DNA of 64,000 bases. Origin: Dryococelus australis. Lineage: Eukaryota > Arthropoda > Insecta > Phasmatodea > Phasmatidae. Of the stretch, positions 12,564 to 41,367 are shown in pieces. Within the stretch, counting starts at the first letter, position 1. Every line of letters begins with the position of its first letter. The stretch spans positions 230,731,265-230,795,264 of the forward strand of contig CM056993.1 in the NCBI GenBank assembly GCA_029891345.1. The letters are read 5' to 3'. The notes beneath the pieces were generated by a model. It had not been told where the DNA came from. It made no database searches and was given only the letters and a program-made list of their open reading frames with translations. A program made the translations under genes and the position numbers.

Positions 12564-13782
12564 TCAGAATGAAAATAAATGATTGCCGTACCACTGACGC
12601 AATGTGCCACGCCACGCCATGTTCCAACTATCTTGACGAAGAAGCTGGACAAAGTCTTGAACTGTCACCGGTGTCGAAAGGTCCACCAAAAAAACCGATC
12701 GCATGAAGTACAAACCAGACCGCAGTTCTTCGTCGAATTGAGGGGAAGGTGAAGAAATTGCAATGAAGCATGTGCGTATCGCTGACATCTCCACGTTCAT
12801 CGCGAATTATTTTTCGTACTCGCACGCGACACCACTGCCAGATGGGAGCTGCATAAACACAGGAAATTACCCTATGAAGGGCCGTGTCGGTGTTGCCACA
12901 CAGCTGACATGCAGGGTCAGCTGTCAGGTGAATGCTGTATTTATGCTGCTGAGTTGCCACGATATTATTGTAGAAACCGAATTCTGCAGCTCGAATATCC
13001 GAGAAAAGGTTAGGATCGGCAAGTATTTTCCATGGGCGCCTCCAGCCGATGGTTGGGGTGAGATTCACAACAGATGGTATGACTGGCGACATTTTGGAAG
13101 CCCGAATGCACAAATATCTCGCCGATACGACTGTCCCTTCCGGTAAGTGTTCTACTAGAGTTGCGAAAGCTTCCTTTGCCTGACGGTATTGAAGTGGCAT
13201 GCGTCTAACTTCAGACCACATCATTTTCTGTAATGCTCCGTAAATGTCCTTTGGGTGCAAAATTGTTGCAATTGCGGAAGACTGATATAAGGCCTCACAT
13301 TTCAAAACGTGATTAATAAGACTCAGGCCTCCGTCTTGCAAAGAAAGATAAAGTTGCGGCCTAGACAATTTAAATATATAAGAATTCCACAACATGCGGC
13401 CAACAATCTGTTGTATTTGTGCACTTTGTTGACGTGGTAGTGGGGATATATGTGACACATACCACAGCTTCGCAAGTAAGAATACATTTATTAAAGTAAC
13501 CTTCTGTATAATATTTGTAAGACGATAATTCATTTCTATTTTACGAGCACGGAGTTTATTTACTGCCTTGTTCCAGTTATAATGCAACATAAGAGTGGCG
13601 TCTGCGTGGAAGTATATGCCCAATATTTTCACAGTTTCGGCCCTCCGAAAAGGAAAAACGTCGTCAAATGGCTCGCTGGTTGCGCTGAGCTCCAGTACGG
13701 CAGTTTTGTTAGCATAAGCAAAGTTAGTCATAATATCCGAACACTTGTTGCTACAGTCATCGAATTCATAACACACACATGA
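12564..13782 (-). mobile_element. LINE (non-LTR retrotransposon), 3' part of ORF2, 5' truncated
   Basis: A reading frame of about 380 codons on the minus strand matches the carboxy-terminal part of a LINE reverse transcriptase. It has the post-catalytic block VKILGIYFHADATL (near 13630), the thumb-like stretch RLTNIIQKVTLINVFLLAKL, then LSLQDGGLSLINHVLKCEAL (near 13330) and a zinc-knuckle-like CQLCGNTDTALHRVISC (near 12895). It runs on to a C-terminus near 12564 (RQWYGNHLFSF) after one frame slip near 12690. The catalytic YADD block and everything upstream are absent, as usual for 5'-truncated copies. The clade is uncertain, L1/Tx1-like or I-like. A single disruption over 1.2 kb makes it relatively young. 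Confidence 0.82.
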
Positions 13783-13785
13783 ACC

Positions 13786-14089: not shown

Positions 14090-17000
14090 ACTTATCAAAT
14101 GAATACTCGTCAAAGAACATTTTTACCCACATAATATTTATTTTATTTACGATTCTAAACAGATTTTATTTCTGAGTTAGATACCTGCTTAGAGCAATTA
14201 ACGTAATGGTAGTTTTGGATTATCAAGTTAGATTCCCGATCAGAACACCTAATATTATTTCATATCCGATTAAAAAAAAGTTGAGTGTTGTTTTGTATTC
14301 CTGCTTATAATAATGAATTTATTGCTATTTTTGGATTACCGAGATTGATTCCCAAGCGACTCACTTAATAGTTTTAAAAAATTCTGGGAAATATAATCTT
14401 AACCATTCGCTTATGCTCAATGTCTATCATATTATCTGATCAGTGTATACTGCTCAACTTATGCATTACATGTTCGATGTGAACTGTTGAAGGTCGAAAA
14501 TGGTGGAGGGGAATGCAGTTATATGATGTAATCGTTTAATTAACATAATAGTGAACATATATACTTACATAAACATGCTATGGATATTTACTACGGATGC
14601 ACGTACACACATGAATAATTAACAACTAAATACTCACCAAAGTAATAATATATCATCCTAGAAAAACAGCCAAACTTCAACTTCTCATTTATTTCAAAAT
14701 TTGCAATTAGTATTAGTATTATTATTTTTATAATTATTAATATTATGTAGGGGGGATGGTATTGCACTTAAACCTACCAGCATTCACTATACACGCTTAT
14801 CAAGCATGCACATTATATGTAGAGAGACATATGCCCACTCCTGAGAAACGACATCTCAGTACTAAAGTCTTACCATAAACATATTGTCCATACGTTATTT
14901 TCAAGCGAGAACACTTTATGCTTTACTCCTGTCAGATCAACGTACCCTAACAGGAAGAAAAAGAAGGTAAAGTTATGAAATGTTACATAAGTTTGCTGAC
15001 ATTCAAAGCTCTGATCTCGCATACCATTTTATGTACTTATAACAGTTTATTTGCATGAGATACAGATTCCTATTTGCACGCCAGGTGGTAGCAATAATTT
15101 CGAATAAGTTTGTCATTTCAAAAATGTTTCCATAGTAAATGTAATAGTTGTCTTGTTTAAAGGAAAAATTGAAAGTTTCATTACAACTTCCTGTATGTGT
15201 AACACTTCAGTAAAGACAATTGCTGGAAAAAACAAAACATGGAATTTGAGAGCTGTTGAAATAAAAAGTTAGTGAAACAGAATGTTGGATGGAATGTTTA
15301 AGGAAGGACTTCGGGAAAAAAACTCTACGATGACTGCTAAATGAGTTTTTGAGCTACAGGAAATAATTTTCGCCGAACACCAATAAGATGGAGATGTACG
15401 GGGGAACCGAGAGCTTCCAACAGGAATGTGCGACGGCGGAGTGCTTGATTTGGTGACCCGAGGACGGCTGAAACTGCTCGAGGTACTCTGAATCCGAGGT
15501 GCCAAATAAACTGTAATTCCTGCATCGTCCCCTAGATGAATTAAGAAAGCCGGCATCAGAGTAAATTTGCTTTCACAGTATAATTCTTTTCTGCACGTTT
15601 AATTGTATATCAGTTAATGAAGAAGTCCTTACATGGATACAGTGCTCGAGAACTTGAAAATAAAAGTTTTATTTTAAATTTTTTTTGTTGAATCTCGTTT
15701 TGAACAACTAGAGGTCCCAAATGCCTCCGACGTAAGCTAGCAGGACTCATTTAAATAATACTTTTTTTTTTTTTTACGAAACTGAGGCAACCAGAAGAAA
15801 ACTTACCTAATTAAGTTCTCGAGGTCTTGATATTTTATCTGGTGTTGGCAGCGCCAAGTTACAATTTGATTGCCATGACAGCCGATTTTCGTGTTTTCCT
15901 TTAACTTCAAATGTTTGTTTAGGTCTTTTACATTCTTCATTAATATAATTTAGGCGTATCAGTTGTTAATTAAGAGAGTATGTGTGATATTTTATTTATT
16001 TAAATGTCTTCATTAAAATAGCATTGTCTATGCTTATTCATGTCGCTTTTTCGGTGTAGTGTAGATGCTTGTTTAGTGAATATTTTTATTGTAGTGATAT
16101 ATAGTAGTGATTGCAGTGTCCAGTGTACGTCTGGTTAACTAATGAAGTTTATCATTCTTCGGACACACTTACCTTAAAATGATTAACAAATTCTCTCGTG
16201 GCACACATCACACACATATCTTATATATTTAACTTTGAATATATTTAGACACAATAATAAGTAAAGAACACATTTAGTACAACATGTATACAATTTCACA
16301 ATATACCAACACCCACAGGCAGAATTCCTCCAATTAATTACACTGTTAAACCATTTCATCACGTAGTAGCAAAACACACACACAGACACAAAATATACAA
16401 ACTCACACACACACAAAAGCCTAAAATATTCAAATTGTAAAACCCGCTCCACCCAAGAATTGCTCCTAATGAACCAAATTAACCCGTATCTAATCTAAAT
16501 TCACCCAAAACGACCAAAATCTACTCCAAAACACACACATACACTCATATATCTCATTTGCACATATAATACCAGGCAACTGCAAAACCCCATACCATCA
16601 AACTTTACAAGCAAAACTAAATACTTGACAATTATATCAACATATCATACAACTCAAATGAAAAATCATACAAAACAGACACGCTCATATTATGAAACCA
16701 CTTCAAACTATATTACCCACAACATAACACCCACTTGCAAAACCCCTAAAATCAAACTTTACAAGCAAAACTAATTACTTGACAACTATATCAACATATA
16801 ATACATTACAAATGAACAAATCTCCATCATCTGTCTTCCAATACATACTATCACACATATTTAATCTGAAGTATAATGATATACAAAAAGAAAAATGCCT
16901 TACTAAAATTACATTTTTCTAATCCGGTCATTTTGACACTAGGATTTTCTGTTTACTTATGCACACAGATGATGTGGAGTCCGATTCTTCATAGAATCCA

Positions 17001-17290
17001 GATACGTAATGTACAAAACCGCATTGAAGCCATATAAATTCTTCTGTAAATTAATAATATCCTGCTTTTATGCTACCAGTGCAACAAAACCGTGCGAAAT
17101 ATAACAGGAAGTAACCTATACAACAAATTAGCCTACTTTTCTGTACATGGATGCAAATAATCGTGACGGACTTCCTTATCTATTCGGTCACACATAAGTT
17201 TCTTAGTTCAAGTATTACAATCGCGCAATATTTGGTACGCACTGTACTTGTGTTCAACACTTGTCTTACAACCAATGAACAACGAGTTGT
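14090..17290. other. AT-rich spacer with no recognised gene
   Basis: Mostly AT-rich sequence with no family motif. A slightly GC-richer patch at 15300-15560 gives an open frame of 95 codons on the minus strand without recognisable domains, and was not accepted. From about 16380 to 16800 the plus strand is strongly A/C-biased with CACACA words and includes the tandem repeat listed separately. Confidence 0.4.
16582..16805. repeat. two-copy tandem repeat, period about 154 bp
   Basis: TGCAAAACCCC followed by ATCAAACTTTACAAGCAAAA occurs near 16583-16616 and again near 16735-16770, with TACTTGACAA and TATATCAACATAT following in both. The copies are highly similar, so the duplication is fairly recent. 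The unit is A/C-biased and non-coding. Confidence 0.7.
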
Positions 17291-17466
17291 GTGCTCGACG
17301 ATATTGGCAACACGCATTCATGTGAAAGAGGAGTAGAGAGTTCCACCGATAAGATTAGCCGCAATGGGCAACGATGCCAATATCCGAGCGGCGGAGCGAG
17401 CCATCATCCGCGGAGGAAGGGTTGGAAAGAAGGTGGGGGGAGGGGGGGTCGAGGGCGCGGCCAGAG

Positions 17467-17474
17467 TATAAAAG
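17467..17474 (+). promoter_or_regulatory. TATA box ahead of the 137-bp array
   Basis: TATAAAAG sits in a GC-rich setting (GGCCAGAGTATAAAAGCGCG), preceded by a G-rich block with GGTGGGGGGAGGGGGGG and followed about 30 bases later by the first repeat unit. The spacing and context are those of a real pol II core promoter. It would start transcription into the tandem array on the plus strand. Confidence 0.5.
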
Positions 17475-17484
17475 CGCGGAGCAA

Positions 17485-18720
17485 GCGGTGGCCAGGGGTC
17501 GCCATTACTGTCCGTCTACCTCGAGCTCCGACGGCTGCAGAGATGTCGTCCAGGGGAGGCGAGCGGCTACAACATCCCAGTGGCGCGGGCCTCACCGACC
17601 CAAGCCTGAGGGACGTTGACAGCGGCAGCCAGGGGTCGCCATTGCTGTCCGTCTACCTCGAGCTCCGGTGGCTGCATAGACGTCGTCCAGGGGAGGCGAG
17701 CGGCTACAACATCCCAGTGGCGCGGGCCTCACCGACCCGAGTCTGAGCGACATTGACAGCGGCAGCCAGGGGTCGCCATTGCTGTCCGTCTACCTCGAGC
17801 TCCGGTGGCTGCATAGACGTCGTCCAGGGGAGGCGAGCGGCTACAACATCCCAGTGGCGCGGGCCTCACCGACCCAAGCCTGAGGGACATTGACAGCGGC
17901 AGCCAGGGGTCGCCATTGCTGTCCGTCTACCTCGAGCTCCGGTGGCTGCATAGATGTCGTCCAGGGGAGGCGAGCGGCTACAACATCCCAGTGGCGCGGG
18001 CCTCACCGACCCGAGTCTGAGCGACATTGACAGCGGCAGCCAGGGGTCGCCATTGCTGTCCGTCTACCTCGAGCTCCGGTGGCTGCATAGACGTCGTCCA
18101 GGGGAGGCGAGCGGCTACAACATCCCAGTGGCGCGGGCCTCACCGACCCAAGCCTGAGGGACATTGACAGCGGCAGCCAGGGGTCGCCATTGCTGTCCGT
18201 CTACCTCGAGCTCCGGTGGCTGCATAGATGTCGTCCAGGGGAGGCGAGCGGCTACAACATCCCATTGGCGCGGGCCTCACCGACCCGAGTCTGAGCGACA
18301 TTGACAGCGGCAGCCAGGGGTCGCCATTGCTGTCCGTCTACCTCGAGCTCCGGTGGCTGCATAGACGTCGTCCAGGGGAGGCGAGCGGCTACAACATCCC
18401 AGTGGCGCGGGCCTCACCGACCCAAGCCTGAGGGACATTGACAGCGGCAGCCAGGGGTCGCCATTGCTGTCCGTCTACCTCGAGCTCCGGTGGCTGCATA
18501 GACGTCGTCCAGGGGAGGCGAGCGGCTACAACATCCCAGTGGCGCGGGCCTCACCGACCCAAGCCTGAGGGACGTTGACAGCGGCAGCCAGGGGTCGCCA
18601 TTGCTGTCCGTCTACCTCGAGCTCCGGTGGCTGCATAGACGTCGTCCAGGGGAGGCGAGCGGCTACAACATCCCAGTGGCGCGGGCCTCACCGACCCGAG
18701 TCTGAGCGACATTGACAGTG
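17485..18720 (+). repeat. 137-bp GC/CpG-rich tandem array, nine units
   Basis: The landmark GA(C/T)GTCGTCCAGGGGAGG recurs at 17542, 17679, 17816, 17953, 18090, 18227, 18364, 18501 and 18638, exactly 137 bp apart each time. A partial unit lies in front (from 17485). Each unit has about a dozen CpGs in otherwise AT-rich DNA. Two variants, CCCAAGCCTGAGGGAC and CCCGAGTCTGAGCGAC, mostly alternate, giving a 274-bp higher-order unit. Since 137 is not a multiple of three, the reading frames through it (up to 151 codons) are chance products. It could be promoter monomers of a retroelement 5' UTR or LTR, an intergenic spacer repeat, or a young satellite. Units differ at only a few positions, so the array is recent or homogenised. 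Confidence 0.95.
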
Positions 18721-18892
18721 GTAACCACAGTTATAAAGATAGGTCTGAGCTGACACTTGCCGCCGTCGTTCTTCGTACGCCTAGTGAAGATCGAGTATAA
18801 TTAGTAATAGTAGAAGCGTGACCCAAAATAATCGGGATTTCTCCCATAACAATACATTCACTACAAGTGTCATACCGGTAAAAATTATCGAA
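18721..18892 (+). other. junction between the GC-rich and AT-rich arrays
   Basis: After the last 137-bp unit comes a unique stretch (GGTAACCACAGTTATAAAGA, then GCCGCCGTCGTTCTTCGTAC near 18760). It leads into the AT-rich repeats. If the TATA box at 17467 is used, this would lie inside the transcript. No reading frame of note. Confidence 0.35.
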
Positions 18893-19380
18893 ATTTCGTG
18901 TTTTATATTTCTTAAATTGTAATAATTTTTGCGTGACAATTAAAAGAATTTTTAAATTTGTGTTATAGTGTTCCGATTTAACGAAAACAATCGTGTTTAT
19001 TCAGAATGTAAACATATTACATAAGTTAGCAAGTGTCAAATGAGTTGTAATTAACGCAATTTCGTGTTTTATATTTCTTAAATAGTAATAATGTTTGCGT
19101 GACAAGTAAAAGAAGATAAAATTTGTGTAATGCAATGATTTTTGTGGTATAGTATTCCGATTTAACGTAAACAATCGTGTTTATTCCGAATGAATACATG
19201 CAGGCTAGCAAGTGACAAACTAGTTGTAATATTAATTAGCAGAATTTCGTGTTTTTTTATTTTTTAAACTGTGACGTGTTTATATGTGACATTGGGACAA
19301 GAATAAATTTCCATAACGCAATAGTTGTGTTGTAATATTGTGATTTAACGTAAATAAAATGTGCCTTTTAGAGATAACCT
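18893..19380 (+). repeat. AT-rich degenerate tandem repeat, three units of 166-185 bp
   Basis: ATTTCGTGTTTTATATTTCT or a close variant starts at 18893, 19059 and 19244. Each is followed by GTAATAAT...TGCGTGACA-type words, then TTCCGATTTAACG and ACAATCGTGTTTATTC (first two units) or their decayed forms. The third unit is the most diverged. It directly follows the 137-bp array and may belong to the same element. Confidence 0.7.
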
Positions 19381-20337
19381 ATAACACATTAAATTACCTA
19401 ATGGTTTCCTTTCCACATGACATGTTTTCATAGCAACTATAGTTAATATTCGGTTTTTGTCCAAAGAATGTACTTGGAATCGAGTCAAAATTTGTTACCC
19501 AATTATTAATGTAACTAAAATATAATAGAAAATAGAAAATAGCATATTTAAGAAGTACAGAAATTGCTCAGTCATCCCCCGATATTTCATTTTTGAATTA
19601 AGCTTAAATTATAGCCAAAAATTCCACACAGTAAGGATAGTTGCAAAGATCAGGGAGATTATGAAGTAAAAATTTTAAAAAGTATAATGGAATCCTTTAT
19701 AAAAAAATTCCAAAACTACAATTTATTGCCATCCACTCTTAACAGTCCCCTTCTGGAAAAGTTCGTTTACATTGAAGTAAATATATTCTATTTTCAAATA
19801 CTCATTCCTTCAAAGCTGTATTTCACAAAAAAGCATGAGTAGGTACTGTTAAAAGAAAAAAATGTTCACCATATTTCAGTGTTCATTCACAAAGTAACAC
19901 GTTCGTTTAAACTAACTTAATGTGTGTTCTAATTTACAAGCCAAGAGCCCTTGCCTGGCTGTGTGTTCCTGAAAAGTGTATCATGGAAGTGACGTTGAAT
20001 TGTCATAGCCTGAATTTTCAGTAAGGGCATGAATGCACCTTGAATATCCCATTTGACTATGGCCAAGAGCGATCTCCACTACACATGCCCGACACTGTAA
20101 GTTTAATTGTTCATAACAATTATGCAGCTTATTCCTGTCGTTTGCTGAACACTTGTTCGTACAGGCACCAAGACAACATAAGAAAATGTGTTTAGTTCAT
20201 TGATTATTCAATCGCTTATGAATAGGAACTTAATAATTTCAAAATAAAGATAATATTTGGAATCATATCCCTTCCTCAAAAAGGGATCAAGGGAATGCAT
20301 AGAACTGTGGGTGTTGAAGGGAAACAAGGGCAAGTAT
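19381..20337. other. anonymous AT-rich spacer
   Basis: No gene or repeat recognised. Confidence 0.4.
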
Positions 20338-20757
20338 AGGTTGTTCACGGTAAAATTAGCACTTTTGAAAGCCCTTCTTAAGATCTACTTGTGTGCAACT
20401 TGTATATTCTTCCGCCTTATGTAAAATTAACATTGCCACGGGCCTCATCACTTTGTACATGCGTCGGTCAAGTGAAACTGTGGAATTATTTAAAAAGTAA
20501 ATATTTTACAAATCCGCTCATTTTTACATTTCGGTGCACTAAAAACAGAAAGCGAAAGAAATAATTTAAGTTATTACAAAGGTTACCTAACATTTATTTA
20601 TTTGACGTTAAGATATGGAACTACTTTCCATCCATCGTTACCAACATTACTGAGTGCATGTCACTCAGTGCGCACGTTAAATGTATATGCAGGCAGGGCC
20701 AGTGACTTCTATCTAAGGTGGATTTCAAAAGTGCTCACTTTATCGTGAACAGCCTTT
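20338..20757 (+). mobile_element. 420-bp MITE, family A copy 1
   Basis: The left end AGGTTGTTCACGGTAAAATT and the following AGCACTTTTGAAAG are the imperfect inverse of the right end (TTTCAAAAGTGCTCACTTTA, then TCGTGAACAGCC). The interior (TATTCTTCCGCCTTATGTAA, GGTCAAGTGAAACTGTGGAA, TACTTTCCATCCATCGTTAC) is shared with copies at 21416 and 41368. It has no coding sequence. A palindromic CACTCAGTGCGC lies near 20665. The superfamily is uncertain; TA-rich flanks would fit a Tc1/mariner-type target but the duplication is not clear. Confidence 0.85.
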
Positions 20758-20758
20758 A

Positions 20759-20760
20759 AC

Positions 20761-20829
<69 letters not shown>

Positions 20830-20900
20830 TATAGAGAGAGAGAGGAGAGAGATATAGAGAGAGAAAGAGAGAGGGAGTGTGTGTGTGTGCGCGCGCGTGC
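20759..20900. repeat. compound microsatellite (TA)n-(GA)n-(GT)n
   Basis: About 75 bases of nearly pure TA are followed by GAGAGA tracts and then GTGTGT and GCGCGC. It starts at the right end of MITE copy 1. The reading frame through it on the minus strand is a repeat artefact. Confidence 0.95.
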
Positions 20901-21415
20901 ATGCGGATGTGTGAATTAGAACACAGCTCTAGAGTAGTGGGGGAACAAATGTTCAAACTTACGTACTGTATAAATACGTCAAAATAAAAACTAATCTTAA
21001 GTAAAGTTTCTGTGACATGGCATTTACATAACTGGTAACTTTCAGTAAACTTTTGAAATGCAAATATAATGCCATGCTAGAACTTTGCATAGCATAAAAG
21101 ACAAGATGATGTGACATAGCAATAAAAACTATTATGAATTTAACAAGAAAATGTAACAGAAACTCATAGGCTACTGCACTTTGAAACAACAAAAAAGTTG
21201 AAAACAATGGCCGATTTGATTGAATTAATGTTTTTTTCTTTAAATACAACAATCCGAAAGAGGAAAGAAAAAACATTTGCCAAAGTGCCATAATGACTAT
21301 TTTTTGTGGAAAGAAAAAGAATGTAAAGACTGATTTTGGTTTAACATGTTACGTACCACAAAAGTATTTTCAGTTAACAGTTACATTGGTCTACATTTGA
21401 TAGTAGGGCAGCTAT
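20901..21415. other. AT-rich spacer between two MITE copies
   Basis: The stretch lies between directly repeated MITE copies. A 110-codon open frame on the minus strand is hydrophobic and K/F/L-rich, as expected of random AT-rich DNA. No family was recognised. Confidence 0.35.
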
Positions 21416-21842
21416 AGGTTGTTCACAATAATAAGCAATTTTGAGAGCCCTGCTCAAGATATACTCGTGTGCACGTTACATATTCTTCCGCGTTATGTAA
21501 AACTGACATTGTCACATGCCTCATCACTTTATTTATGCGCCGGTCAAGTGAAACTGTGAAATTGTTAGAAAAGTAAATATTTAAAATAATCTTCTCCTTT
21601 TTACACTTCGATGCACTGAAAAACCAGAAAACGAAATAAATAGGCTTAATTTACGTTATCGCAAATAGTTACCTTAACACTTTATATTTGATGTGAAAAT
21701 ATGGAATTACTTTCCATCTATCATTACTATCTTTACTGGGCGCATATCACTCAGTGTGTCCGTTATAGTATATGCAGACATGGGCAGTGACTTTTTTCTG
21801 AAGTTGATTTCAAAAGTGCTCACTTTATCATGAACCACCTTA
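21416..21842 (+). mobile_element. 420-bp MITE, family A copy 2
   Basis: Same family and orientation as the copy at 20338. It has AGGTTGTTCACAATAATAAG at the left and the inverse end CTTTATCATGAACCACCTTA at the right. The shared interior blocks include TATTCTTCCGCGTTATGTAA and GGTCAAGTGAAACTGTGAAA. The copies differ at many positions, so they inserted or duplicated long ago. Confidence 0.85.
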
Positions 21843-22599
21843 CACTAAAACTGTTTTGTATTTACATGGCTGGTTGTATATACAGTACATATTTGACCCC
21901 ATGTTTATTCATGTTGTGTGTGATGTATGGTGACCTACTTACACAGATCTCCAAGGAAATACTAGACACCATAGGATGCAAGCTGATTGTTACGCGAGTC
22001 AAATACATTGATTGTTAATGTGAATGGCTCTCCTTCATGTCCTCATTTGGCAGTCGACGTCCTGCTACATGTCAGTATTTGATGAGCCACAATTGACTGT
22101 TGTACTGACAATACCTGGAGCAGTTCAGGTGGTCAAGTTTCCAACCGCCTAATGAAAGCCTAGGATCTCACACTAGCCAACTTTAAGACGCATCCAGTCA
22201 CAGTTGCTGAAGCTGCTTTTCAACATGCGGCACGCTGCTGTTTACAGCAATGCCTCAAGACACTGCGTCTTCTCAGCACTGACCTTGAGCTACATTGATT
22301 CACACCACAACGGGCAAGTTCTTCATTGTAGCTAAATGGTTTTCAGAAATTAAAATACCCAAAATAATACACGAAACTTAGAGCAAAAAGAAATTAATAT
22401 TTTTTTGTGTTTTTATTTGCCAACCTTGAATAATAATATAACTTTTAAAATTTTCAGAAACCTATATAAAAATTACTGATGCTACACAAAAAAAAAGTTA
22501 TTTATTTTAAAATCCAAGATACTCAAAAGAAAATTTCGAACATAGGATATAGGCTTATATTTTGTCTTCTTAAGACAAAATTTCATGCACTGTAGTAGA
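21843..22599. other. anonymous spacer
   Basis: No gene or repeat recognised. The stretch 22020-22310 is GC-richer than its flanks but shows no open frame with a known domain. Confidence 0.4.
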
Positions 22600-22812
22600 A
22601 ATATTAGGGCAGCTCTTAACATTGTGGTCTTGAGAGATGAGAATGGAGCCATGCCAGAATGCAAGGGCAGGGGAAATAAGAAATCCCAGTGAAAACCTGC
22701 CGGTCAGCACAGTTCCCAAGTGTAAAAATTCTGGAATGACCCCGCCGGGAATCGAGCCTGGTTCACCTTAGAGGAAGGCAAGTAGTCTGACCACTACACC
22801 ACCACAGTTCAT
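22600..22812 (-). mobile_element. tRNA-Gly-derived SINE, copy 3
   Basis: On the minus strand from 22812 the head GTGGTGGTGTAGTGGTCAGA (A box) leads to GGCTCGATTCCCGGCGGGGT (B box). The body follows with CATTCCAGAATTTTTACAC, CCGGCAGGTTTTCACTGGGA, CCCTTGCATTCTGGCATGGC and TCTCAAGACC. It is nearly full length but diverged, and shares all blocks with the other copies. Confidence 0.85.
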
Positions 22813-23973
22813 GCTCTTATCCACCACAGTTGTCACTTTCCAATTCTGAATTCTCCTTATTCCCTAGGCCTCGTATCCTGCTAGGGATGTTCGACAGGAT
22901 GTTTTTTTACATGCATTAAAATTAATATCAGCATGTTGTGTACATGTACATTACACATGTACAGGTATTTTTTGCGTAACAAAATATTTTTGTGTAAAAG
23001 TTTCATTTTTATTTTAGAAAGTAATAAGACTCCTTAGGAACACCATTTATTTATTCACTGCAAAATCCACCGCAATTTGGCACTGTTCTATAATGCAAAT
23101 TCTGAGAGGTATAAACATACCTGCATAAAAGACGAAAAGCAACTTTCACATGTCGTGATTGGCCAGGCAAATGTTTGTTCCAGAGCAAAAATAGTTTTGA
23201 TTGTGTAAACATGGACAAAATTATAATACAATGAAATATTGCTGCGTTAAAAAGCTCTATGTTATACAATTACTGAATCCAAATCAGGTAAGAAGTTACC
23301 AATTTATTTACTGATTGTATGGCAGCGTTCAGTTAGCATACTTTATGTCCCACACATCGCAGTCACGTGACACTGGCATCAGGAGGCGGGACCTCTCGTC
23401 AGCCATTCGCTAAGTTCAAAATGCCATGGTTAAATATTGCAACCTTAAATCTAATTATTAAAACTTGAGATGTGGATTTTCGCCAAAATATTTTCTTTAG
23501 TCCCCATAATGGGGAAGAAGTAAAAAAATAAGCAAATGCTATGTAAACATTGCACCAACAGGTTTCTTATCTGATGCATAATTATCATATTATTTTCCAT
23601 CGATGTCTCGAAATTGCTAGTAGGACTTGCTAACCACGTGATTAATCACAAGTAAAACATATTAAAAAAATTCTATTGTAAAAGTGGATGTGAAATTTGG
23701 ATCATCACTTAAGTTCAAGATTTCACAATGTGCATGACCAGTGGTAGATCTACGATGGGTATGGAGAATGGTTTCCAGTAGGCATTGTGGACTGCAAATT
23801 ATGCCTACCACTTTTAATGGAAATTCACTTTTATCTACCAAACACAGAAAAAAAAAAAAGACAAAAATGTAGCAAATGTGCAGAACAGGAAGGGTATTTC
23901 CCAACAATTAGTAAAAGTTGAATCTCCAGCATCGAAGTAGCATAAAAAAATATTATAAAGAACAAAAAAAAAG
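22813..23973. other. anonymous AT-rich spacer
   Basis: No gene or repeat recognised. Confidence 0.4.
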
Positions 23974-24225
23974 AACTTGTGATATTAGCCTACAAATTTT
24001 TTATAATGAGCTGGTATTCCACCCTCATTTAGATCATACAGAGTAGTTCTGGTCTCACACTAACAATTTTAAACAAAATTCAGGTTCTGGACTGAAAACA
24101 ACTTGTGATATTAGCCTACAAATTTTTTATAATGAGCTGGTATTCCACCCTCATTTAGATCATACAGATAAGTTCTGATCTCACACTAACAATTTTAAAC
24201 AAAATTCAGGTTCTGGGCTGAATAT
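23974..24225. repeat. recent tandem duplication, two 126-bp copies
   Basis: AACTTGTGATATTAGCCTAC begins at 23974 and again at 24100. The two copies differ at about four positions over the unit. No coding function is visible. The near identity shows that the duplication is recent. Confidence 0.92.
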
Positions 24226-25980
24226 TCAGTTCATAAAATTGTATTTTATCCTAATCTTGATCCACAACATACAAAAGTGGAGATGTCATAAGCTACAACT
24301 GTTCAAAGTTAATTAAGTTAAGAATTGGAAGGTTCCGGTAGTAAATACTATTTTTTGTAGTTTGAAGACAACCAAGACTTATCATCATTAGGACCTGAAT
24401 CATATTAAATACAAGTACACTATAAGTAGTCCTCCTTACACACCAAACCTGTTTTTTAATTATTAAATACTCTAATAAAGTATACCTACCACCTCAGTGA
24501 GCATCAGCTGCACTACTGCTGTTTACACCAAATAATGAAACTACTTGACAGTATAAAAGTATTATGTAACAGTATGTTTGTAGAACTGTCCAGGAAAGCA
24601 AGAGATTTTATTGTTTAATAATACTTTCAGCACAGTATAAAAACACTATGGTCAGTACGTTGTTACATTTTTAAATAAATGTTTGTTTTGTCAAGTTGAT
24701 AATGACTGAACAATAGGTATATTCTGAAAGTTTGAAAAGTATGGAACAGAGCTTACAGTTTGAGAGCAGTCTGAAAGCATTATGGATACTATTCCGACAG
24801 ACACAAACTCATATCTAACAGTTAAGAAACAATTAAAAACAGAACACAAAACTGTTTTCATGCCATTTTCATAGTGTTTTTTCAGTAAGGGTGGCAATGG
24901 CTACTACATCCTTATACGGGTGACACAGTATTCACCAGCGAGACACCATTATTATACTTTGATATTTGTTGTTATAGTCAGAGGATCTCTCTATCATAGT
25001 TCTATAACTGTTTACAGTAAAATGAATTTGAGAGATTAGTGTATTTTGATATTGTGTCATTCAACTTGTGGAGACTCAGATCACAGTAATCTTATATCTA
25101 GTGCCAGTATTTCTGTGTCCTATATCCATTATCCATGCATGCTTGACAGAAACGTTCATGCATTAACAGGTCCTGTGACCCATTCGCTAACGGAATGCGC
25201 TTATCAGTGCAATGTCTCTTTGTCACGTAGAGAAAACTCAGTAACTATGTCAAAATGTGTTTTAATCATACGTAGTTTAAAGCCTACGGGCAGATGTTAG
25301 AATCAGCACATAAGGCACCACGTATTTGAACAGACTGATTATTGTACAATGAGTTAAATAGGAATTAACAAGTGTTAACGGATGTAGCAAGTCAGTGCAT
25401 TATGTGGGATTATTTTCAGTGTTTGTTTTAACTGGATTGCTCCAGTCAAAGTATGGCCCAGTTGGTCGTATCCAGCTGGCCGTATGTGTTGCACACGAAT
25501 CGCGTCACAGAGAGTGATCTAATTTTGTTCCAATAATTTTTGTGTGCCATAATCGTTTAACGTTAGTAACCTGAACTTTGTTTTTGTGTAACCTTCAGTG
25601 TTCACAGCATCCCTCCGTCGACTCACAGGCTTTTTATTTCTAACTTTATGTCAAGTGATTTTGTTTGTGCCATTTTGGGTTTTTTTTTCCGCAGCTATGG
25701 CCACTTGCAGGTCTTGTGAGCCAGATCAGTTTTCGTTCACCTGTACATGTGTGTTTTTTATACATATTTATTCAATAAAATATTTGCTGTACTTCAAAAC
25801 ATGTTATACTCACCGAACCATGTCAAGTGCAATATCACAATTGATGCAGACAAGAAGCCAATTATAACACTATATTTATGTTCCCCACCTCAGATCAAGC
25901 AATTATCCACATTGACAGTATGTCGTGGTCTCTGGAGTGGGGGAGGATGGAGGTTTGACTTACGATACCAGGTTTTAGAA
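24226..25980. other. AT-rich spacer with no accepted gene
   Basis: No family motif was found. A start codon preceded by an acceptor-like TTTTTTTTCCGCAG (near 25695) opens MATCRSCEPDQFSF, but the frame soon becomes AT-rich random sequence and was not accepted. Confidence 0.35.
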
Positions 25981-26401
25981 TACAGTAGAAATTCGATTAT
26001 CCCAACGTTAGTTATACGGACAATCAGATATCCGGACTCGTTTTAAAAATAAAGAGAATAGTAAAATCATGAAAGTTTCTTTTGTCATAGTGTTTCCCTT
26101 ACCCACGGAGGAGGGACAAGCTCTTATGTGTGCTCTTGTGATGTGTCCTTACACGTGTTGTTCACAATAAACACGTCTGGAAGGATGATGATTACTTGTT
26201 AACTGATTTCATTTTTATTTTTTATACAGTTTCTGTTTTGAATAAGTTACAGTTCTACACATGACTAATAAATGTTACGTTGAGTGAAAAAGTTTTTTTT
26301 TTAATCTTCATTTTCAACATATTTCCATAATCCGAATTTTCTATTACCTATCTGAATTACCATTGGTCCCTATTAGTCGGGATTATCTGCACTCTACTGT
26401 A
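25981..26401. mobile_element. pogo/Tigger-like MITE
   Basis: The left end TACAGTAGAAATTCGATTAT and the right end GGGATTATCTGCACTCTACTGTA are inverted copies in the style of pogo/Tigger termini (CAGTAGA...TCGATTATCC). Each is flanked by TA, the expected target duplication (25981-25982 and 26400-26401). The 421-bp element has no transposase. Subterminal words such as ATATCCGG and ATAATCCGAA recur in inverted form, as usual in this family. Confidence 0.85.
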
Positions 26402-28734
26402 TTCGTAGAGTTGCGAAGTGTGCCAGAGCACGATAGAATCTTCCAGGGTGTGGGCCGTTCGCCCACGTGGCTCTCCTCAGTTCACCCTGCGATGAGATGA
26501 CATCGTTGTAATGATGCAATAAACCTACTAAATGTTGAGTGAGACTGTTGAATGGCCATCTCACATGCCAGACACACACAATAAGTTGAAACGCTGTCAG
26601 GAGGCTGCAGTGATGCAGCGGGTAGATGACCCAAAACAGTTATATGGCTGTAAAGCGACCTGCAGTGAAGTAAAAAGAACCACTTTCCACTGAATTGCTC
26701 TTTACTCGCTGAATTCCCTCCAAGGAGGCACGCACTTTATTATGGTTTACATCTTATTAGTCTCATAGATATCAGCAAGTTGCAATAAATTCAGATAGTA
26801 TAAATACAAGTCTAAAAAAAGGGTTAGGTAATCAATCACTGCTCCCAAAGGTTCCATCCTTTTCCCTCTATTATATTTATTTATTTTTAATATGCTAGAT
26901 ATAAATTATATGTATTCCAACATCATATTGTGTATGATGCATACTAAATTTTCATTTAAATATGAGAATCTGACAGCACTTATGGTGTCATTAAATGAGA
27001 CTATTCGTCACTAGATAAATAGTTTACAGCAAATAGTCTTTCTTTAAAAGGAGATCAAAAAGTAATTCTCCACATAAAAACAACAGGACTATAACTTTTT
27101 AATGAAATATAGAAACTATGATTAAAGAAAGCCTTCCTACAATATTTTAGGCTTACATAATGACATTCATCTTTATGGGAATCCTCACATTGATAACATA
27201 TTCCCGAAACTAACTGCAGCGTGTTACACTTTACATAATTTATCATATCGTCTAAAGACATCCTCCCTTAAACAAATTTATTTTTCATATTTTCATGCTG
27301 TTATGTTATATTGTATGATTCGGTGGGCACCTTCTTCTCAAACTATCTAAAGTTTTCAGATTCCAAAAAGGGCCAAAGGAAATACTTACAAATATTTTGT
27401 GTAGGTATATGGTTGTGTTTAATATTTTTGACTAATGCTATATTCCAGAGCTCCTGCTCATCGTAGGATCGCTGGAGAGATTTGATAGTAAATAAATAAA
27501 TAAATAAATAAAACTACTTTAGCAACAAAAATTCTGTGTATGCAGTTACAAAATTTCCGAGGTTTGCATAGTCCCCTGCTGTGAAAATTGTTAGTTTTTT
27601 TGATTGCAAGAAATTACTATACATACTGGGTCATATCTGTGTTTGACAATATTTGTGATTTTCCCTGTGTTGTAGACTAACGAGCAACAATTAGCTGAAA
27701 AACAGTTTTCACTACATAGAATGAACAGTTAATGTGTTGATATTTGTGAATATAGAATGGAGGCTACAAGTTCAAGAGCTTCACAGGTTGTGTATTAGCT
27801 GTGCATTTATGAATTTGGTTGTGCAATCCTGGCCAGATATTTTTTAATATTTGTTATATTACAGGTTTTTTCTCATTTAAGGTGAAATGTGACTCGTATG
27901 AGAGCTGTTGAATTGGCCAACGACAGAGAATATTTTCTTCGTCAGCTGTCTGTTAGAAACCTGTAATAGTGTGCAGTGTAAATGTGCACATTTATTATAT
28001 TGAACCATACGTTACTAATTAACCGCAATGCGAATCACTTGGTTTTGCTTTATCATTGCGCATTGGTAAGTTTTGTACATGTCCCATTCTTTGCATACCC
28101 GTGACAAATTATGTTACATTCAATTCTACTGTACATACATTTAATTATATATGTAGCTCCTGGAAACTGTTGACATACAAATATACACAACTCTGATTGC
28201 TCGAGCTCTAGTGAAGCACATAATGCCCCCCCCCCCCCTTTTCCACTCTCTTCACTGTACTCTACAAGCTAATTGGGGCAGATTTGAATGTCATCAGTTT
28301 TATGGAGCTTGACTTTGGTTTTCAGGTTTTTCTTTGGCCATAACTTATCCGCTTCTATCTTTAAATAGATACATTTTACATAACATGTTTTGGTACGAAG
28401 TGTTTTTCACATAGCCCAACTGCTTGCACCAATTTCAACTCAAAATTATTTTGCGGTATTGCAGATTGCCACTTCGCTCTTTAAATGGATCATTTGGAAC
28501 AATAAAAAAAAAGGAAAAATTTTACGGGTTCAGTATAGCGGAAATATAAAAATACAGTTAGTTTGAAACCATAAAATTATATCGAGACCACTATGTTGCT
28601 AATGAATTTAATAACTATTTTGTAAATATTGCCACTACCCTAAATATGGCAAATAATAATGATAATACATCCAAATAAAATAGTTATGCATCACACATAC
28701 TAGTAGAAGTATTACAACCCCAATACCTTTAACC
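26402..28734. other. AT-rich spacer
   Basis: No gene was recognised. A short (TAAA)n tract at 27489-27512, after CTGGAGAGATTTGATAG, looks like the simple-repeat 3' tail of some retroposed element on the plus strand, but no body upstream could be identified. A C run lies near 28228. Confidence 0.35.
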
Positions 28735-28740
28735 AGTGTT

Positions 28741-29400
28741 TTGTGGCTTGAGCAATGCATTATCATCATACGGTTTATTATTTTGGGAATCTGCAACTAT
28801 GATAACACAATATTCGTAGTTAGAAAAACGGTCATTAGAATAACCTCTAAAGTAATTAGGTATAATACAAGTTGCAGGCCTTTATTAAAAAAAAGAATTA
28901 CCATTCTCATCAATCTACATTTTTGAACTTATTAATTTATTCACTCAAACAAAAACGAATATCTTAAAAAAATTAGATTTCCATCACTATTCCACAAGGA
29001 ATATAAATAAGTACCTATAGAGTATATTATCACCGGACAAATTTGTACAAGAGAAGTACCAATTGAGTTGAAAGGAATACATTATACACAATAAGCTACC
29101 AGACTCGATAACGTCAATAATCTTAAATAACTTTTTAAGAAATATATTAAATACCTTCTGCTGAGAGTCTTCTATTGAACAGTTGTTAAACACACTTAAA
29201 ACACATGTTGTCATATGTGCGGACGTGATGAAAATGCAGTAGTATATATTTGTACTATGTACATAATTGTATTTTTACTTTATACTACAAAATATTTTTA
29301 TTCAATATTTATTGACATGTCCTATAACGTTGTTCTGCTAGACACGATGTACAATATTACTGAACAAAATAAACTTGGACTTTTCGAACCATAACCTTCA
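28741..29400 (+). mobile_element. Jockey/CR1-like LINE, 3' end of ORF2 plus 3' UTR
   Basis: The end of a LINE reverse transcriptase is readable in pieces on the plus strand. These are YGLLFW (near 28770), then IFVVRKTVIRITSKV and YNTSCRPLLKKRITILIN (28810-28918), then FHHYSTRN (near 28980, the hxYxTR motif), then NKLPDSI with NFLRNILN (29090-29150). These blocks in this order are characteristic of the Jockey/CR1 C-terminus. One or two frame slips and stops separate them. An AT-rich 3' UTR follows and ends near ACAAAATAAACTTGGACTTT (29365). The 5' part is missing, as usual for target-primed insertions. Confidence 0.75.
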
Positions 29401-30094
29401 TTATAATAAACAAAAACAATAAACATGGTGCAGGAAAAATGCGCTGCAGAGGTTTATACGAACTCGGAATACTGCGCGCGCCAGCAAAACATTATCGTAA
29501 ACAAAACCAACTTCAAACGCACCAAAATGTATCACAATTCTTTATGTCGAACGGGCATATGAAATTATTCAAAAATCTCCGAAACTCCCATATACCGAAA
29601 TGTTTAAAGCTGGTCGGACTGCACTAGCGCTGTTAGTTCACAAGCCGCAGCGAGCTTCACTTAGCGTACGCGTTAGATCAAGGCAAAATGATAGCAGTTG
29701 CCAGACCTAACTTTATGACCTTGGTGGTGAGTCAAGGTGACTTAGCTTTGGATAATCAAGGGGTATTAGAGCTTCCCCTTAACAGCCTTGTAGAGCTTAA
29801 TATCTTACTTCTGATGAAAGAGTTAAACAGTTGTATTCGTTGAGATACAATAAATGCTATTATTTCTCTACTATTGGTTTGAATAATTTATCAGTAACCG
29901 TAAACAGTTAGCTAACTTAGAACGAAAGAGTAGAACAACTAGGAAGGCCGGCCTCTAATGCCGCCTTTATGAGTACAGCAACGGTCATAAATATCATTCA
30001 CGTGCGACGTGCACACAATCGTGGACACTGTGACTGCCCGGGTTAAAATGTTATGATGGTAGGTGGGACTTGACGTCTCGTTGTCGGCGATATT
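29401..30094. other. anonymous spacer
   Basis: No gene or repeat recognised. The stretch is slightly GC-richer than average, with no conserved domain in any frame. Confidence 0.35.
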
Positions 30095-31860
30095 ATTAAA
30101 GATGTGACCAGAAAGAATAGCAATACTAGTGAGGCAATTACAAATACGCGCGTGTCTTACATGGTACTCGAACCCAGAACACTGCGCACTGTAAGATGGT
30201 GTGTAACCAACAGTATTACGGAGGTAAAATTAGGTGCATCAACTTCGGTTGCGATTAGTCTAAAGTTTTGATAGACTGGGTTTACCAACCACAAATATAT
30301 ACAGGAACATCATTTTGAAAACAAGTGTGCGAGTCTCTTAAATCGTGTAAGTTGACATGACGCACCATAGCACCAATTGTATGCAGAATTTGGGGGAAAG
30401 GGGAAATAGGTTGACTGGTGCCCGGGATATGGCTTAAAAGGTTTATTTTCTATTTTAGCGCTATTGTACAAATATGTCTAAAACCAGGCTCAGTATAGGC
30501 ATATATGATGCTTCAAATAAACACCGTCAGCATATAAAGTTTGGTTGATTTTGTCAAACTATGTAATAAATATGATCAACAATTTATATTGCCCCAATTA
30601 AAAAAAGTACACATTTAAATTATGCAAGTTTACATGGCCTACTGTAATACTACGTATGTGAAAAATGTGGTGGGAATAAGTTGGTTGATTCCCGAGATAT
30701 GGCATGAAACTCAATTTTCTCACGTGGTACTATCTTTATTAATGGAGAACCAATTCTATTTCCTAAATCAAAATATTTATATGGCTGCAAATTTTAAAAT
30801 AAGAGCCAGACCTACATAAAACATGCCCGTTTACATGACCAACAATTGTAGTAATGGTTTGTAATATTAGGTAGAAAACGGGTGATTGTTTTTTGAGATT
30901 TGATATAACTTAATTTATTCATGTGGAGATTCTGTGTAGACAGAGTTGATGTTATAAAAGATATTGTCAGCATAGAAAGTTAAGTTTAAATTTCGAAAAT
31001 CAATGTTAGTCCACTGTAAAAAATGGCAATTTACATAGCTTACTGTGGTACTTAAGGTTTGCCGAATTCGATAGCAATCGGTTGATTGTATCCCGTCAAA
31101 TGACAACACCTAATTATTTCGTGTGCTACAATCATTCAAAATTGTTAACAAAAGAGGCTCTGGGTAGAAGCATCTGATGGTTGCAATAAATATTGATAGC
31201 ACACTAAGTTATGTGGAAAATGGTTACGTGGTTTAGTACATATAGCATTTTTATATGACCACTATTTTTAAAATAAGTGTCTGGCCCACTAAAACATGTC
31301 CGTTACCATGACTTACTGTTGCTCTACTAAATTGTCAAATTTGGTATGGATGGGTTACTTTTTTCCCGATATATGGCGTGAAATTTTTTTTCATATGGCA
31401 CACTCTTACAATATATTGGATGAAAGTAATTATATACTGACACGTTTAACACTCGTAATAGACACTTTCACATTCCCAAGTTTGGTAAAAATTAGTCAAA
31501 CGGTATAGTAGATAAATTAATATAATCTTAAATATTTATATTGGTGGCATTTTAAAAAATAAGTTCCTTATAAATATAAATTTAATGCATTAATGTGGTC
31601 TACAACACTATACGTATATGCGGCCCAAATCTAACAGGGATGGTCTGAGTAGTTACCAAGATATAAAGTAAAAGCTTAATGTTTTCATGTTACACTAACT
31701 TCCGAAATGACTGATCAATAGCTTTAATGCTTTCTACATTCTATTCTTACATCATGCGCTACAAACTTACCAAATATGGTTTAAATCAGTTATATGGTTC
31801 CCGAAATATAACTTAGTGCCCTAAAATATTTTGACTGCCTCCATTTGGAAAGCACGAACC
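30095..31860. repeat. unnamed repeat family R285, copy 1
   Basis: This locus and 56245-58495 begin with the same head (CCAGAAA...CGCG..TTAC.....ACTTGAAC-type sequence, then GCATCAACTTCGG). Both then consist of decayed tandem units. The unit carries in order: GTTTACATGACCTACTGT-like, TTTGCCAAATTTGGTAG-like, ATCGGTTGATTGTTTCCCGA, GATATGACATAAAACTTAAT, TTATTCATGTGGCGCTATCT, and GCCAGCATACAAAGTTAAGT. Here landmarks fall at about 30527, 30966 and 31194, with deletions. Both loci also end alike (ACAAACTTACCAAATATGGT, then TATGGTTCCCGA near 31762-31803). No coding function was recognised. Confidence 0.75.
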
Positions 31861-33119
31861 CGGCGTGATATTAAACTTAAAAGTCCCATGTTCTTGCAAA
31901 ATAGTATATATGGACCGAATTGACATTCAGTTCACGGGCTTAAAAGTTATTAGAGCCGAGTATATACGCGAGACAGACATTCATGTCATTGCATAAGCCT
32001 TACTTTCCTTCGGATTATAGGCCAATAAAACGGGTTTCATCATGTTACTGTAAACGTTAAAATATTTAGCGAGCAAGATTTAGTTTGGTTATTGTTTATC
32101 TGAACAAAATATTACTTGTATATCTAGTAGAAAAATAAAAATAAGTATTCACCAAGACAGAAATGTAATAGTTATATAATTATATAGGTTATGCTACAAT
32201 GTTTTAATTTCAATTTTATGTTTTAAATTTGTCGATACCAATTTTTGATAACCTTTCAGGCCAAATAATGTTTTCTTAAGAGAATAGTTTTGCGCAGAAA
32301 CGTTTGAAAATTTAATGTTATTTTTTCTGATAATGGGGCACCACTTTTTTTAGAAATTCAATGTACACATAATATTAACAATTATAACTTAATTATTTTC
32401 ACAGTATACACTTATAGGTTGGTACACCTAACGTGGAAACCCCAAACATTTCCGCACTGGTTGTAGATCATGAAAAGCGGGTTTCGCTAAATGATAGTAT
32501 ACACGAAGGTGAGTAATTTGTCTCTTGTGGCTATTCTTAACACGTATATGGATAGAGAAATTGAACCAAATATGATTTGTTAACTGGAAACGTACACTTA
32601 TTTCAAAAGCCATATGAAAGTATTTACTAAGCGGAGTTCAGCTATATAGAAGTGGCAATAGAAAGACGCTAAGAAATAATGTGCAATTATGATTAAGTTA
32701 GGTGGGCTGGTAGCATGGGGCAGTGGACCTGTACTCACAGCTACAAGTACACAACACGAGCCGTGACACATCCTGGCAGGACCACTTCACATAGCACCTT
32801 AGCGCTTACCTCAATGGCGCAAGGGACACGGAATGCGATATTGGACCAATACTAGCACGCAACAGAGGGAAGACGGTCAATGAGAGTGCAAGTCTGATAT
32901 CAATACGTACATTGATTCAGATAGCAATTTAATTCACAAGATTTGTTTCCTAATTATTAACTGTACTAAGTAACGAGTGCGAACCGATGCATTATATAAT
33001 TAGAACAACCAAACCTTAGAAGAAAAGCAATCGCATCCTCATACATAATAAAAATGAGGACCGCTATGGTAGAAATCATTCACTTTGGGTCTTTACACAT
33101 AACGTTCATTATGTGTTTA
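31861..33119. other. anonymous AT-rich spacer
   Basis: No gene recognised. A GC-richer patch at 32700-32890 shows no known domain. Confidence 0.35.
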
Positions 33120-33670
33120 CTATGGACAACAGTAAACATATATTTGTAAACGCTCACGTAGTGAGCGACGAGTGGCCTGAAATGTTTCTGGCGTAATGCT
33201 GTTGCGAGCTACCACAATGTGTCGATGCATATCATTTGGCGTCGTAGGAACCGTGTTGTACACCCTGTCTGTCGGTGTTCCCCGCATAATAAGATCTAGA
33301 GGTGCGAGGTCATGGGGGCGAGCTGGCCATCTTGCAACACTACTACGCCCTATCCATCGGTTTGTAAACACTTCATTTAACACTTGCCTCGTCACCAAGT
33401 AAAATTCGCAGAGCAAGCGTGATGATGAATCCACATATGACGACGTATGTCGAGCGGTATATCTTCCAGAAGTGCCGGTAACGTATCTCTGAAGGAATGG
33501 GCGTAAGTACAGCCAGCCAGTGTCCCTTGAATGAGGTGTGGCCCTATGACGTAGTCTCCAACGTTTCCACACCTCATGTTCATACTCCACTGCCTCTGGT
33601 GCTCCACATGCCGGACTCAACGCGGATTCTCCGCGGCCCAGTAGTGCATATTTCGTTAATTTACTGCGCC
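33120..33670 (-). mobile_element. IS630/Tc1/mariner-type transposase relic
   Basis: A minus-strand frame of 166 codons (33620-33120) plus a second frame overlapping its first half carry the C-terminal half of a DDE transposase. Recognisable blocks are LPALLEDIPLDIRRHMWIHH, then FTNRWIGRSSVARWPARPHD with LAPLDLIMRGTPTDRVYN, then ITPETFQATRRSLRERLQ near the end. These match the RNRWIGRGGP.AWPxRSPDLTPLDF motif of insect Tc3/maT-like transposases. The SPDL Asp is HDL here and the two halves lie in different frames. The N-terminal domain and inverted ends were not found. Confidence 0.75.
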
Positions 33671-34002
33671 CACGGTAGGTCTATATTAAGGTCGCTTCAT
33701 TAGAGCGAACGTATAGAAGCATATACGCTGCCGGAACTCGCCTTCATGTAATACCCGATAGAGCCACGTGATATGGATGGAATTTCCGTTGGCCCAGTAT
33801 ACGTAACACTCTTTTTATTTCACTTAATCCTACTTACGTGGAAAATTCTCGCTTGCCCACGTGGCGGTTTGCATCGACACGTGGCAACACATCGTGTTGC
33901 TGCGTCTCGCCCGTAGCAGTATTTCATTGCACTCGTGTTGTGGAATCGCCTCATGACAATGTGCATATTCTTCGTCATGTTTGCCGTGAGACGGGCGTCC
34001 TA
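33671..34002. other. anonymous GC-richer spacer
   Basis: Contains repeated CACGTGG/CCCACGTGG words near 33855-33885, but no gene or element could be named. Confidence 0.3.
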
Positions 34003-34106: not shown

Positions 34107-35725
34107 GGATACCTTTCACCATACATTTCGGCGGCTGGCTTGTTTGTCATTTCTGCTACATTCACTGTAAATACGTAGAGCGTCGAGTTTTTCCTCATTT
34201 TTGAACTTCATTACGTATGAGAAGTCCCACACTGACACACAACTTACCACGACAGATGACGGGGACTGTTGCTGCACTGCTATTAGGAAGCGGTCCCGCC
34301 AGGATGTGTCACGTCGCGTGTTGCTTCCTTATAGCTGTGAGTACAGATTCCCTGCCCCGTGCTACCGGCCCACCTAACTTAATAATATTTGCACGTTATT
34401 TCTTGTTGCATGTGCTAAATCACACAATTACTCTTTGCAAGTTATTTCAGGCGCCATTGAAATAAATGTATGTGGTTCAATTTCTGTGACCATACACGTG
34501 TTTATAATAGCCACTGTGCGGCAAATTACTCGCCCCGTACGTACTAAAATTGAGAGAAAACAGCATTTTGTGGTCTGCAACTGGTGCGGAAATTTTGGTG
34601 GTGCGAGCATTAGGTAGGTTATCTTGTAAATAAAATAATCAAAATATATTTGAGCATGTTCTTTCCTGTAAACAGGCAGTCATATTTCCTAAGCCAAAAA
34701 AGGACACTTCTGTTCTCATTTGAAGAGTGGGACTTAAATATTATTTACGTTTACGCATGAAAGGAAATAGTTGTTATAAAACGAGGAAGCGTATTGTTTT
34801 GCGTTTATTTATGATACTTCACATCTCTTAATTATCGTGGTATATTACTACTAAGTGATCTGGTGAGCTTCAAATATTTAACATTATCATAAGTAATTTA
34901 ATTTAAGGCAATCGGTTTTCTTTTGACATTTTGAAACGCTGATGTTTGCTGATAATATGTTTTAGTTAATAAAACTGTAAACTGTCGTCAATTTGGCACT
35001 TTGACGATCGCAAACGAAGAAAAATTTAACTATTCTACATAAAATATTATTTTATTATTGCATAGTGAGCAGCGAGTAGGAATAAGAAGGTTGGTAATTT
35101 GGCATTTGTATAAAATATCGGGAAACAATCTCAAAACATATGCTATAGCGTAAAATAAATTAAAACTGGTAAAAACATCTTTGTGTGAAGGTGAACATGG
35201 ATATTTTAAGGATTGAGAAAAATGAGTGAAAAACATATTAATAACTGCTAAATGAAATTGTCATCAAATAATTAGGATGGATGCTTTCAAGTAGAGAAAA
35301 ATGTAAACTATTTTATTGTTGTAATATTTTTAGAAAATAGTCGTATGTTATTAGATTTATAAAAAAAATTACTTGCAGATACTATAAAGTTTACCCTTGA
35401 GCCAAGGTTTAATGTAAATGTAGCGAGTGCGAAGTCTCATAAATGGTTAGTAAAAATAAAATAAAAATGTCATTTCTGAGGTCGGGGGTTGGAGAATGTG
35501 TTTGGGTTTGAAAATGCGTAACATTTAAATTTAATAATGTATTTTACATTTTAGTAAAAATTGATTTTAATAAAATTTCTTTGACAAGTAAAATAGTGAA
35601 ATCCATTATATTAAAAACTGAAAATAAAAATGTTTGGATACTTACGTCCACGAGGTGCTGGGTTAAACATTTAATGATCGTACAACCCACGCAATAAGAG
35701 ATCCCAATTGTGACGATGGCACCAA
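34107..35725. other. AT-rich spacer
   Basis: No gene or repeat recognised between the small MITE and the minisatellite. Confidence 0.35.
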
Positions 35726-35921
35726 GGCTGGTAGGCCACTCGTATGTCACTATGGCTGGTAGGCCACTCGTATGTCACCATGGCTGGTAGGCCACTCGTA
35801 TGTCACCATGGCTGGTAGGCCATTCGTATGTCACCATGGCTGGTAGGCCATTCGTATGTCACCATGGCTGGTAGGCCACTCGTATGTCACCATGGCTGGT
35901 AGGCCATTCGTATGTCACCAA
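35726..35921. repeat. 28-bp minisatellite, seven units
   Basis: GGCTGGTAGGCCA(C/T)TCGT repeats at 35726, 35754, 35782, 35810, 35838, 35866 and 35894, each followed by ATGTCACCAT. Units differ mainly by one C/T position. The period is not a multiple of three and no gene spans it. Confidence 0.95.
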
Positions 35922-41340: not shown

Positions 41341-41367
41341 TGCAGATGAAAGAATCTAGATGTATAT

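Follow-up and report, generated by a model that had tools for sequence, protein, structure and literature searches.

A nine-fold tandem array in Dryococelus australis that probably derives from the leader of a Ty3/gypsy-type LTR

A tandem array in a 64,000-bp stretch of the Dryococelus australis genome (the window) very probably represents the leader of an old, probably solo, Ty3/gypsy-type LTR that would have been amplified to nine copies and then split by a transposon. The LTR has homology to its relatives on both sides of the insertion, the junction between units was found at this locus only, and the insertion is flanked by a target duplication (Table 1). Taken on sequence, the unit and the TATA box ahead of it are the start of the approximately 430-bp LTR of a decayed Ty3/gypsy-type retrotransposon, and the array is the predicted transcribed leader of that LTR, beginning close to a predicted start site, rather than a set of promoter monomers.

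Table 1 Features of the split LTR in the window
Feature	Position	Strand	Basis
5' part of LTR (U3) up to the array	17360..17483	+	Homology to relatives starts at 17361-17366; relatives TGTTATGGGCAACGATG-like at start
LTR TATA box, TATAAAAG	17467..17474	+	Homologous place in 20 relatives (by eye): TATAWAA 8, near-matches 6, other sequence 6
Nine tandem copies of a 137-bp LTR leader stretch (approximately from the predicted start to GTGAGT)	17484..18718	+	TRF; unit comparison; single copy in 20/20 fetched relatives
First 6-bp target duplication, TGGTAA	18719..18724	+	
11-kb inverted-repeat DNA-transposon-like insertion of a dispersed family, CCACAGTTATAAAGATAGG ... CCTAACTTTATGACCTTGG	18725..29724	+	End matches elsewhere
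AT-rich subterminal direct repeats of the insertion, spacing 166-185 bp, 2-3 degenerate copies	18864..19357	+	Off-register matches in other copies show the same
Second copy of target duplication, TGGTGA	29725..29730	+	
3' part of LTR, TGGTGAGTCAAGG..., AATAAA at 29849, ...GTAGAACA	29725..29937	+	3' halves of relatives match

The array and its single-unit relatives

TRF reported a period of 137 with 9.0 copies, 96% matches and 0% indels, in agreement with the nine 137-bp units described in the initial annotation. Comparing the units with one another, we found 0-6 differences per 137 bases between units 2-9, with unit 1 the most divergent (7-11 differences per 137 bases from the others). Three linked sites (119, 122 and 128) divide the units into types A and B, whose succession along the array is A B A B A B A A B. 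Neighbours alternate in 7 of 8 cases, and 7,149 of 100,000 shuffles get there; taken alone, this is only suggestive of a non-random alternation and is not significant. A coding array was rejected, as the unit length is not divisible by 3 and the longest reading frame to enter the array stops at 17746, and searches of the window returned no Rfam match and no tRNA. Elsewhere in the window, a 28-bp minisatellite occupies 35716-35920 (7.3 copies, 96% matches).

We searched the assembly (3,415,067,245 bases in 646 contigs, with the window in contig C1) using the inter-unit junction ACAGYGGNNNCCAGGGGTCGCCATT, a pattern that junctions with other letters would escape. All eight matches in the 3.4-Gb assembly fell in this array, and the reversed control gave none. 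The long arrays at one or many loci that define a satellite were not seen, there being nine units with their junction at one locus in an assembly that may have collapsed longer arrays. The unit itself is dispersed: with 40 of 108 candidates scored, it had nine matches in the array and at least 39 elsewhere at 73-93% identity, 38 of the 39 outside matches beginning at query position 28-35, which is the GCCAGGGG edge. A 22-base piece of the unit, allowing up to two mismatches, matched the genome 144 times (9 in the array, 135 elsewhere; reversed control, 0), and inspection by eye of the listed matches revealed no pair outside the array within 1 kb of each other.

Sequence was fetched for 20 of the 39 outside places, every one of which carries one unit. 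Fourteen of these relatives were aligned; the other six (L011, L012, L018, L019, L021 and L028) were dropped for an LTR that is interrupted or different upstream, and in several of them the interruption or difference lies near the start site or the GTGAGT site. The 14 aligned relatives proved to be copies of one common element of about 430 bp, running from a TGTTATGGGCAACGATG-like start to a TAGAACA-like end, in which a TATA box roughly 100 bp from the start is followed by the unit and then by AACAGTGGTGAGTC-like letters. Most have the TGTT...AACA ends of an LTR, and nine have a polyadenylation signal (AATAAA in six, ATTAAA in three) 257-275 bp after the unit start. The GTGAGT site at the end of the unit, read by eye in all 20 relatives, is exact in 11, GCGAGT in 3 and altered, lost or interrupted in 6. 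A genome search with the unit had been named beforehand as a check on the initial annotation, with plain satellite blocks that lack a TATA box and a common downstream sequence as an outcome that would count against it; this outcome was not observed, since the relatives share the position of the box and a common downstream sequence.

Directly ahead of the LTR, in the position of a purine tract, AGGAGGG and more was seen at four loci (L009, L017, L024 and L025), and directly after it, in the position of a primer site, CTGGTGGAGGCACC or close variants at four others (L022, L026, L027 and L043). The assignment of these loci to 5' or 3' LTRs rests on the same features, and no tRNA was matched to the primer site. 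Three of the loci (L026, L027 and L043) have an interior in common. The complete element on contig C17 (L043) has the direct repeats of an LTR retrotransposon, its two LTRs being 82% identical (351/428 aligned) and about 7.4 kb apart. Between them lies an RNase H domain (PF17919/PF17917) at L043:5349-5609 (PF17919, 4e-22), followed at L043:6571-6861 by an integrase-like piece, which is 46% identical over 95 residues to a piece in the window that matches Integrase_H2C2 and itself had no Pfam or PDB match. A reverse transcriptase domain (RVT_1, 8e-19) was detected in L046, within a stretch common to the L043 interior upstream of RNase H. The order reverse transcriptase, RNase H, then integrase is that of Ty3/gypsy elements, and the pieces from L046 and L043 together follow it, in pol frames that are short and were left unmended. 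A literature search by topic words found no report of the LTR family, by which we do not claim its absence from print.

Other remnants of this kind lie in the window. Minus-strand fragments at 51774-52913 are 76-82% identical to the interior of the C17 element (L043:3131-4096), and a minus-strand Ty3/gypsy-type element at 62029-63851 has RNase H (PF17919, 6e-27) and Integrase_H2C2 (1e-8) matches, its pieces being 46% and 57% identical to pol of the LTR family. An open minus-strand frame of 385 aa at 12628-13785, with no Pfam match, presumably resembles the end of a non-LTR retrotransposon protein.

The LTR in the window and its insertion

The LTR in the window is recognizable on both sides of the insertion. 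U3 pieces of 13 of the 14 aligned relatives match 17361-17433 and/or 17451-17487 at 76-96% identity, and the 3' halves of all 14 match about 29724-29937 on the same strand at 72-86% identity (best, 86% over 213 bp, E 9e-67). Similarity of unit 9 to the relatives ends around the GTGAGT site (18719-18724), and when short flanks were joined across the insertion, 14 of 20 relatives matched through the joint. The copy has both a TATA box and an AATAAA signal; its first four bases have changed to CGCA from TGTT, and its own target duplication (ATTAG before, ACTAG after) needs a 1-bp shift. Since no element interior turned up in its flanks (15001-17360 and 29938-34000) on comparison with fetched stretches of six loci (L041-L046), the copy is probably an old solo LTR. 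A match to L021 in the right flank, at about 33.2-33.8 kb of the window, lies a long way from the LTR.

The two halves now lie 11 kb apart because an inverted-repeat transposon split the LTR later. With 40 of 395 candidates scored, its left end gave at least 40 matches elsewhere, including 39 long ones that are 81-88% identical; with 40 of 390 candidates scored, its right end likewise gave at least 40, of which 39 are long. In all 11 fetched copies, CCACGGTCATAAAG-like letters mark the start of the similarity, and what precedes them is mostly unrelated; L035 and L038 have a short further stretch in common ahead of that start. By eye, five left and right ends pair on the same strand at distances of 9.4-11.7 kb. 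Of six copies whose two end regions were read by eye, two are flanked by exact 6-bp duplications (TGTAGC and TATAAA), two agree at 5 of 6 bases (the window copy, TGGTAA/TGGTGA, and one on C13), the copy on C5 fits only with a changed end, and the copy at C1:204.9 Mb has no recognizable 5' terminus. The family combines, as read by eye, inverted CCACGGTCATAAAGATAGGTC-like termini and a duplication of fixed length with AT-rich subterminal repeats. A gapped local alignment of the two ends of the window copy scored 27, no higher than the best of 100 shuffles, so its inverted termini rest on position and family. No transposase was recognized among ten chosen open reading frames (ORFs) of the insertion, none of which exceeded the Pfam cut-offs (best below cut-off, Cation_ATPase_C, 0.0026). 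As the alignments place it, the transposon landed at the conserved GTGAGT site, which is the edge of the array.

A separate element of about 430 bp with inverted ends of about 39 bp occurs three times in the window (20335-20759, 21408-21841 and 41364-41795), and it matches the insertions in the LTR copies L012 and L019 and part of that in L028.

Origin of the array and the promoter question

The array very probably grew within this one LTR. The LTR would have kept its TATA box while the 137-bp stretch from about the predicted start to the conserved, splice-donor-like GTGAGT was duplicated once, probably through short similarity between AGCGGTGG directly before the unit and AGTGGTGA directly after it. 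The former precedes unit 1, and an undisturbed LTR would read the latter after unit 9; this microhomology is short, at 6 of 8 bases. Unequal exchange or slippage may then have brought the array to nine copies, with the 11-kb inverted-repeat transposon inserting at the array end, and so splitting the LTR, in a later step. At the internal junctions the left-hand letters recur in the form AGCGGCAG, which would leave a GTGAGT site at the end of the array only. Back-splicing or exact exon joining was considered as the source of the junction and set aside, in that the retained AGCGGCAG, resembling the left flank, suggests no joining at GTGAGT.

Repeats made in reverse transcription, by repeated strand transfer within R, would have entered the genome already multiplied. 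Such an origin fits the position of the units, which begin close to the predicted start and so to the beginning of R, and for the tandem repeats of plant Ogre-type elements illegitimate recombination or abnormal strand transfer in replication has been hypothesized (PMC7004042). We nevertheless consider it unlikely here: R would be expected to extend past the AATAAA 257-275 bp downstream, of which the unit takes up only about 140 bp, and no other copy with the junction was found in the 3.4-Gb assembly.

The initial annotation had instead read the array as a possible promoter module, likening it to the monomers of mouse L1. Mouse L1 5' UTR monomers are promoters, and the array resembles them in having tandem units near the start site of a mobile element. 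A promoter of this type, with monomers stacked ahead of a mobile element or gene and each adding promoter strength, would accord with a TATA box placed 18 bp before the first CCAGGGG of unit 1 (17492), the spacing the annotation had given, and the mobile-element promoter context is real. The octamer TATAAAAG is by itself not rare, occurring five times in the window counting both strands. From a box at 17467, usual TATA spacing puts the start near 17495-17505, so the units lie downstream of the predicted start, and the 137-bp unit has no TATA box of its own. Unlike the mouse monomers, the array stands behind one TATA box in one copy of its family; a monomer-type promoter needs a family-wide array, whereas the relatives have one unit each and all eight junctions are here. 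The sequence now downstream of the array belongs to an unrelated transposon that inserted into the LTR. We therefore regard stacked promoter monomers of the mouse L1 kind as very improbable. The annotation was right in placing a TATA box in the promoter region of a mobile element, namely the LTR of a dispersed Ty3/gypsy-type family; the array itself, its junction being found nowhere else, is no family-wide promoter module.

Co-option of the LTR by a host gene, to which it would supply the promoter and a first exon with the array as 5' untranslated sequence, is also very improbable. There is a TATA box, and 11 of 20 relatives have GTGAGT at the unit end, but in this copy the array is followed by GTAACC owing to the transposon insertion, 0 of 10 ORFs tested in the insertion reached the Pfam cut-off and the relatives are dispersed LTRs.

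The CpG content of the array had been taken as a sign that it is unmethylated or young. Its CpG count was confirmed: the 1236-bp array has 116 CpGs, or 12-14 per unit where about 12 had been estimated, and they are many because GC content is 66%. The observed/expected ratio is 0.857, against 0.902 for the whole window and a mean of 0.86 (sd 0.23) over its 64 1-kb bins, of which 33 reach the value of the array. Among the 20 fetched relatives, C-to-T or G-to-A changes were found at 55 of 593 CpG positions (9.3%) compared with 45 of 1152 other C/G sites (3.9%), a 2.4-fold difference whose p-value of 1e-5 is optimistic in treating related copies as independent. Other changes are also somewhat higher at CpG (27/593 versus 34/1152). 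With a ratio like that of the window bins and this excess of transitions, the conclusion drawn from retained CpGs does not hold; the changes in the relatives are the opposite of what protected CpGs would give, a comparison qualified by the relatedness of the copies.

Nothing in these data indicates a present function or activity of the array. Should the TATA box still be active, transcription would cross the array into the transposon. There is little reason to expect that the expanded leader is functional, in the sense that a GC-rich nine-fold array behind a live LTR promoter might belong to a non-coding transcript and recruit chromatin proteins or proteins that bind RNA; were it so, it would parallel the leader repeats of ZAM, which are reported to interact with HP1a (PMC5408687).

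Comparison with known systems

Tandem repeats in the leaders of insect gypsy-type elements are described for Tirant (2-6 x 102 bp) and ZAM (2.3 x 307 bp) (PMC5408687). The array here is likewise a tandem repeat of an insect gypsy-type leader, with units in the range of about 100-300 bp, but the Tirant and ZAM repeats are family-wide and lie in the 5' UTR, whereas here the repeats lie in the LTR and the junction is in one copy only. In maize, the CRM1TR and CRM4TR repeats of centromeric Ty3/gypsy retrotransposons also derive from LTR/UTR sequence, with illegitimate recombination proposed as the start and with arrays later hit by insertions (PMC3648361). Those repeats are centromeric, with a unit that runs from LTR into UTR and growth ascribed to gene conversion, and differ in this from nine units inside one LTR. 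In Lathyrus, satellites have been derived from tandem subrepeats of Ogre retrotransposons (PMC7004042). Both cases present short arrays inside LTR retrotransposons as satellite seeds, although the Ogre subrepeats are in the 3' UTR, family-wide and expanded mainly at primary constrictions.

That retrotransposons seed tandem repeats is thus already established, and the array is a clean but ordinary example. One locus and its single-unit relatives would together show the birth of a tandem repeat from part of an LTR, including the stretch that was copied, the similarity flanking it and the later insertion. Of the D. australis repeats, 1.56 of 2.17 Gb are unclassified (PMC10268593), and the LTR and the transposon that split it offer two families for description among these mostly unclassified repeats.
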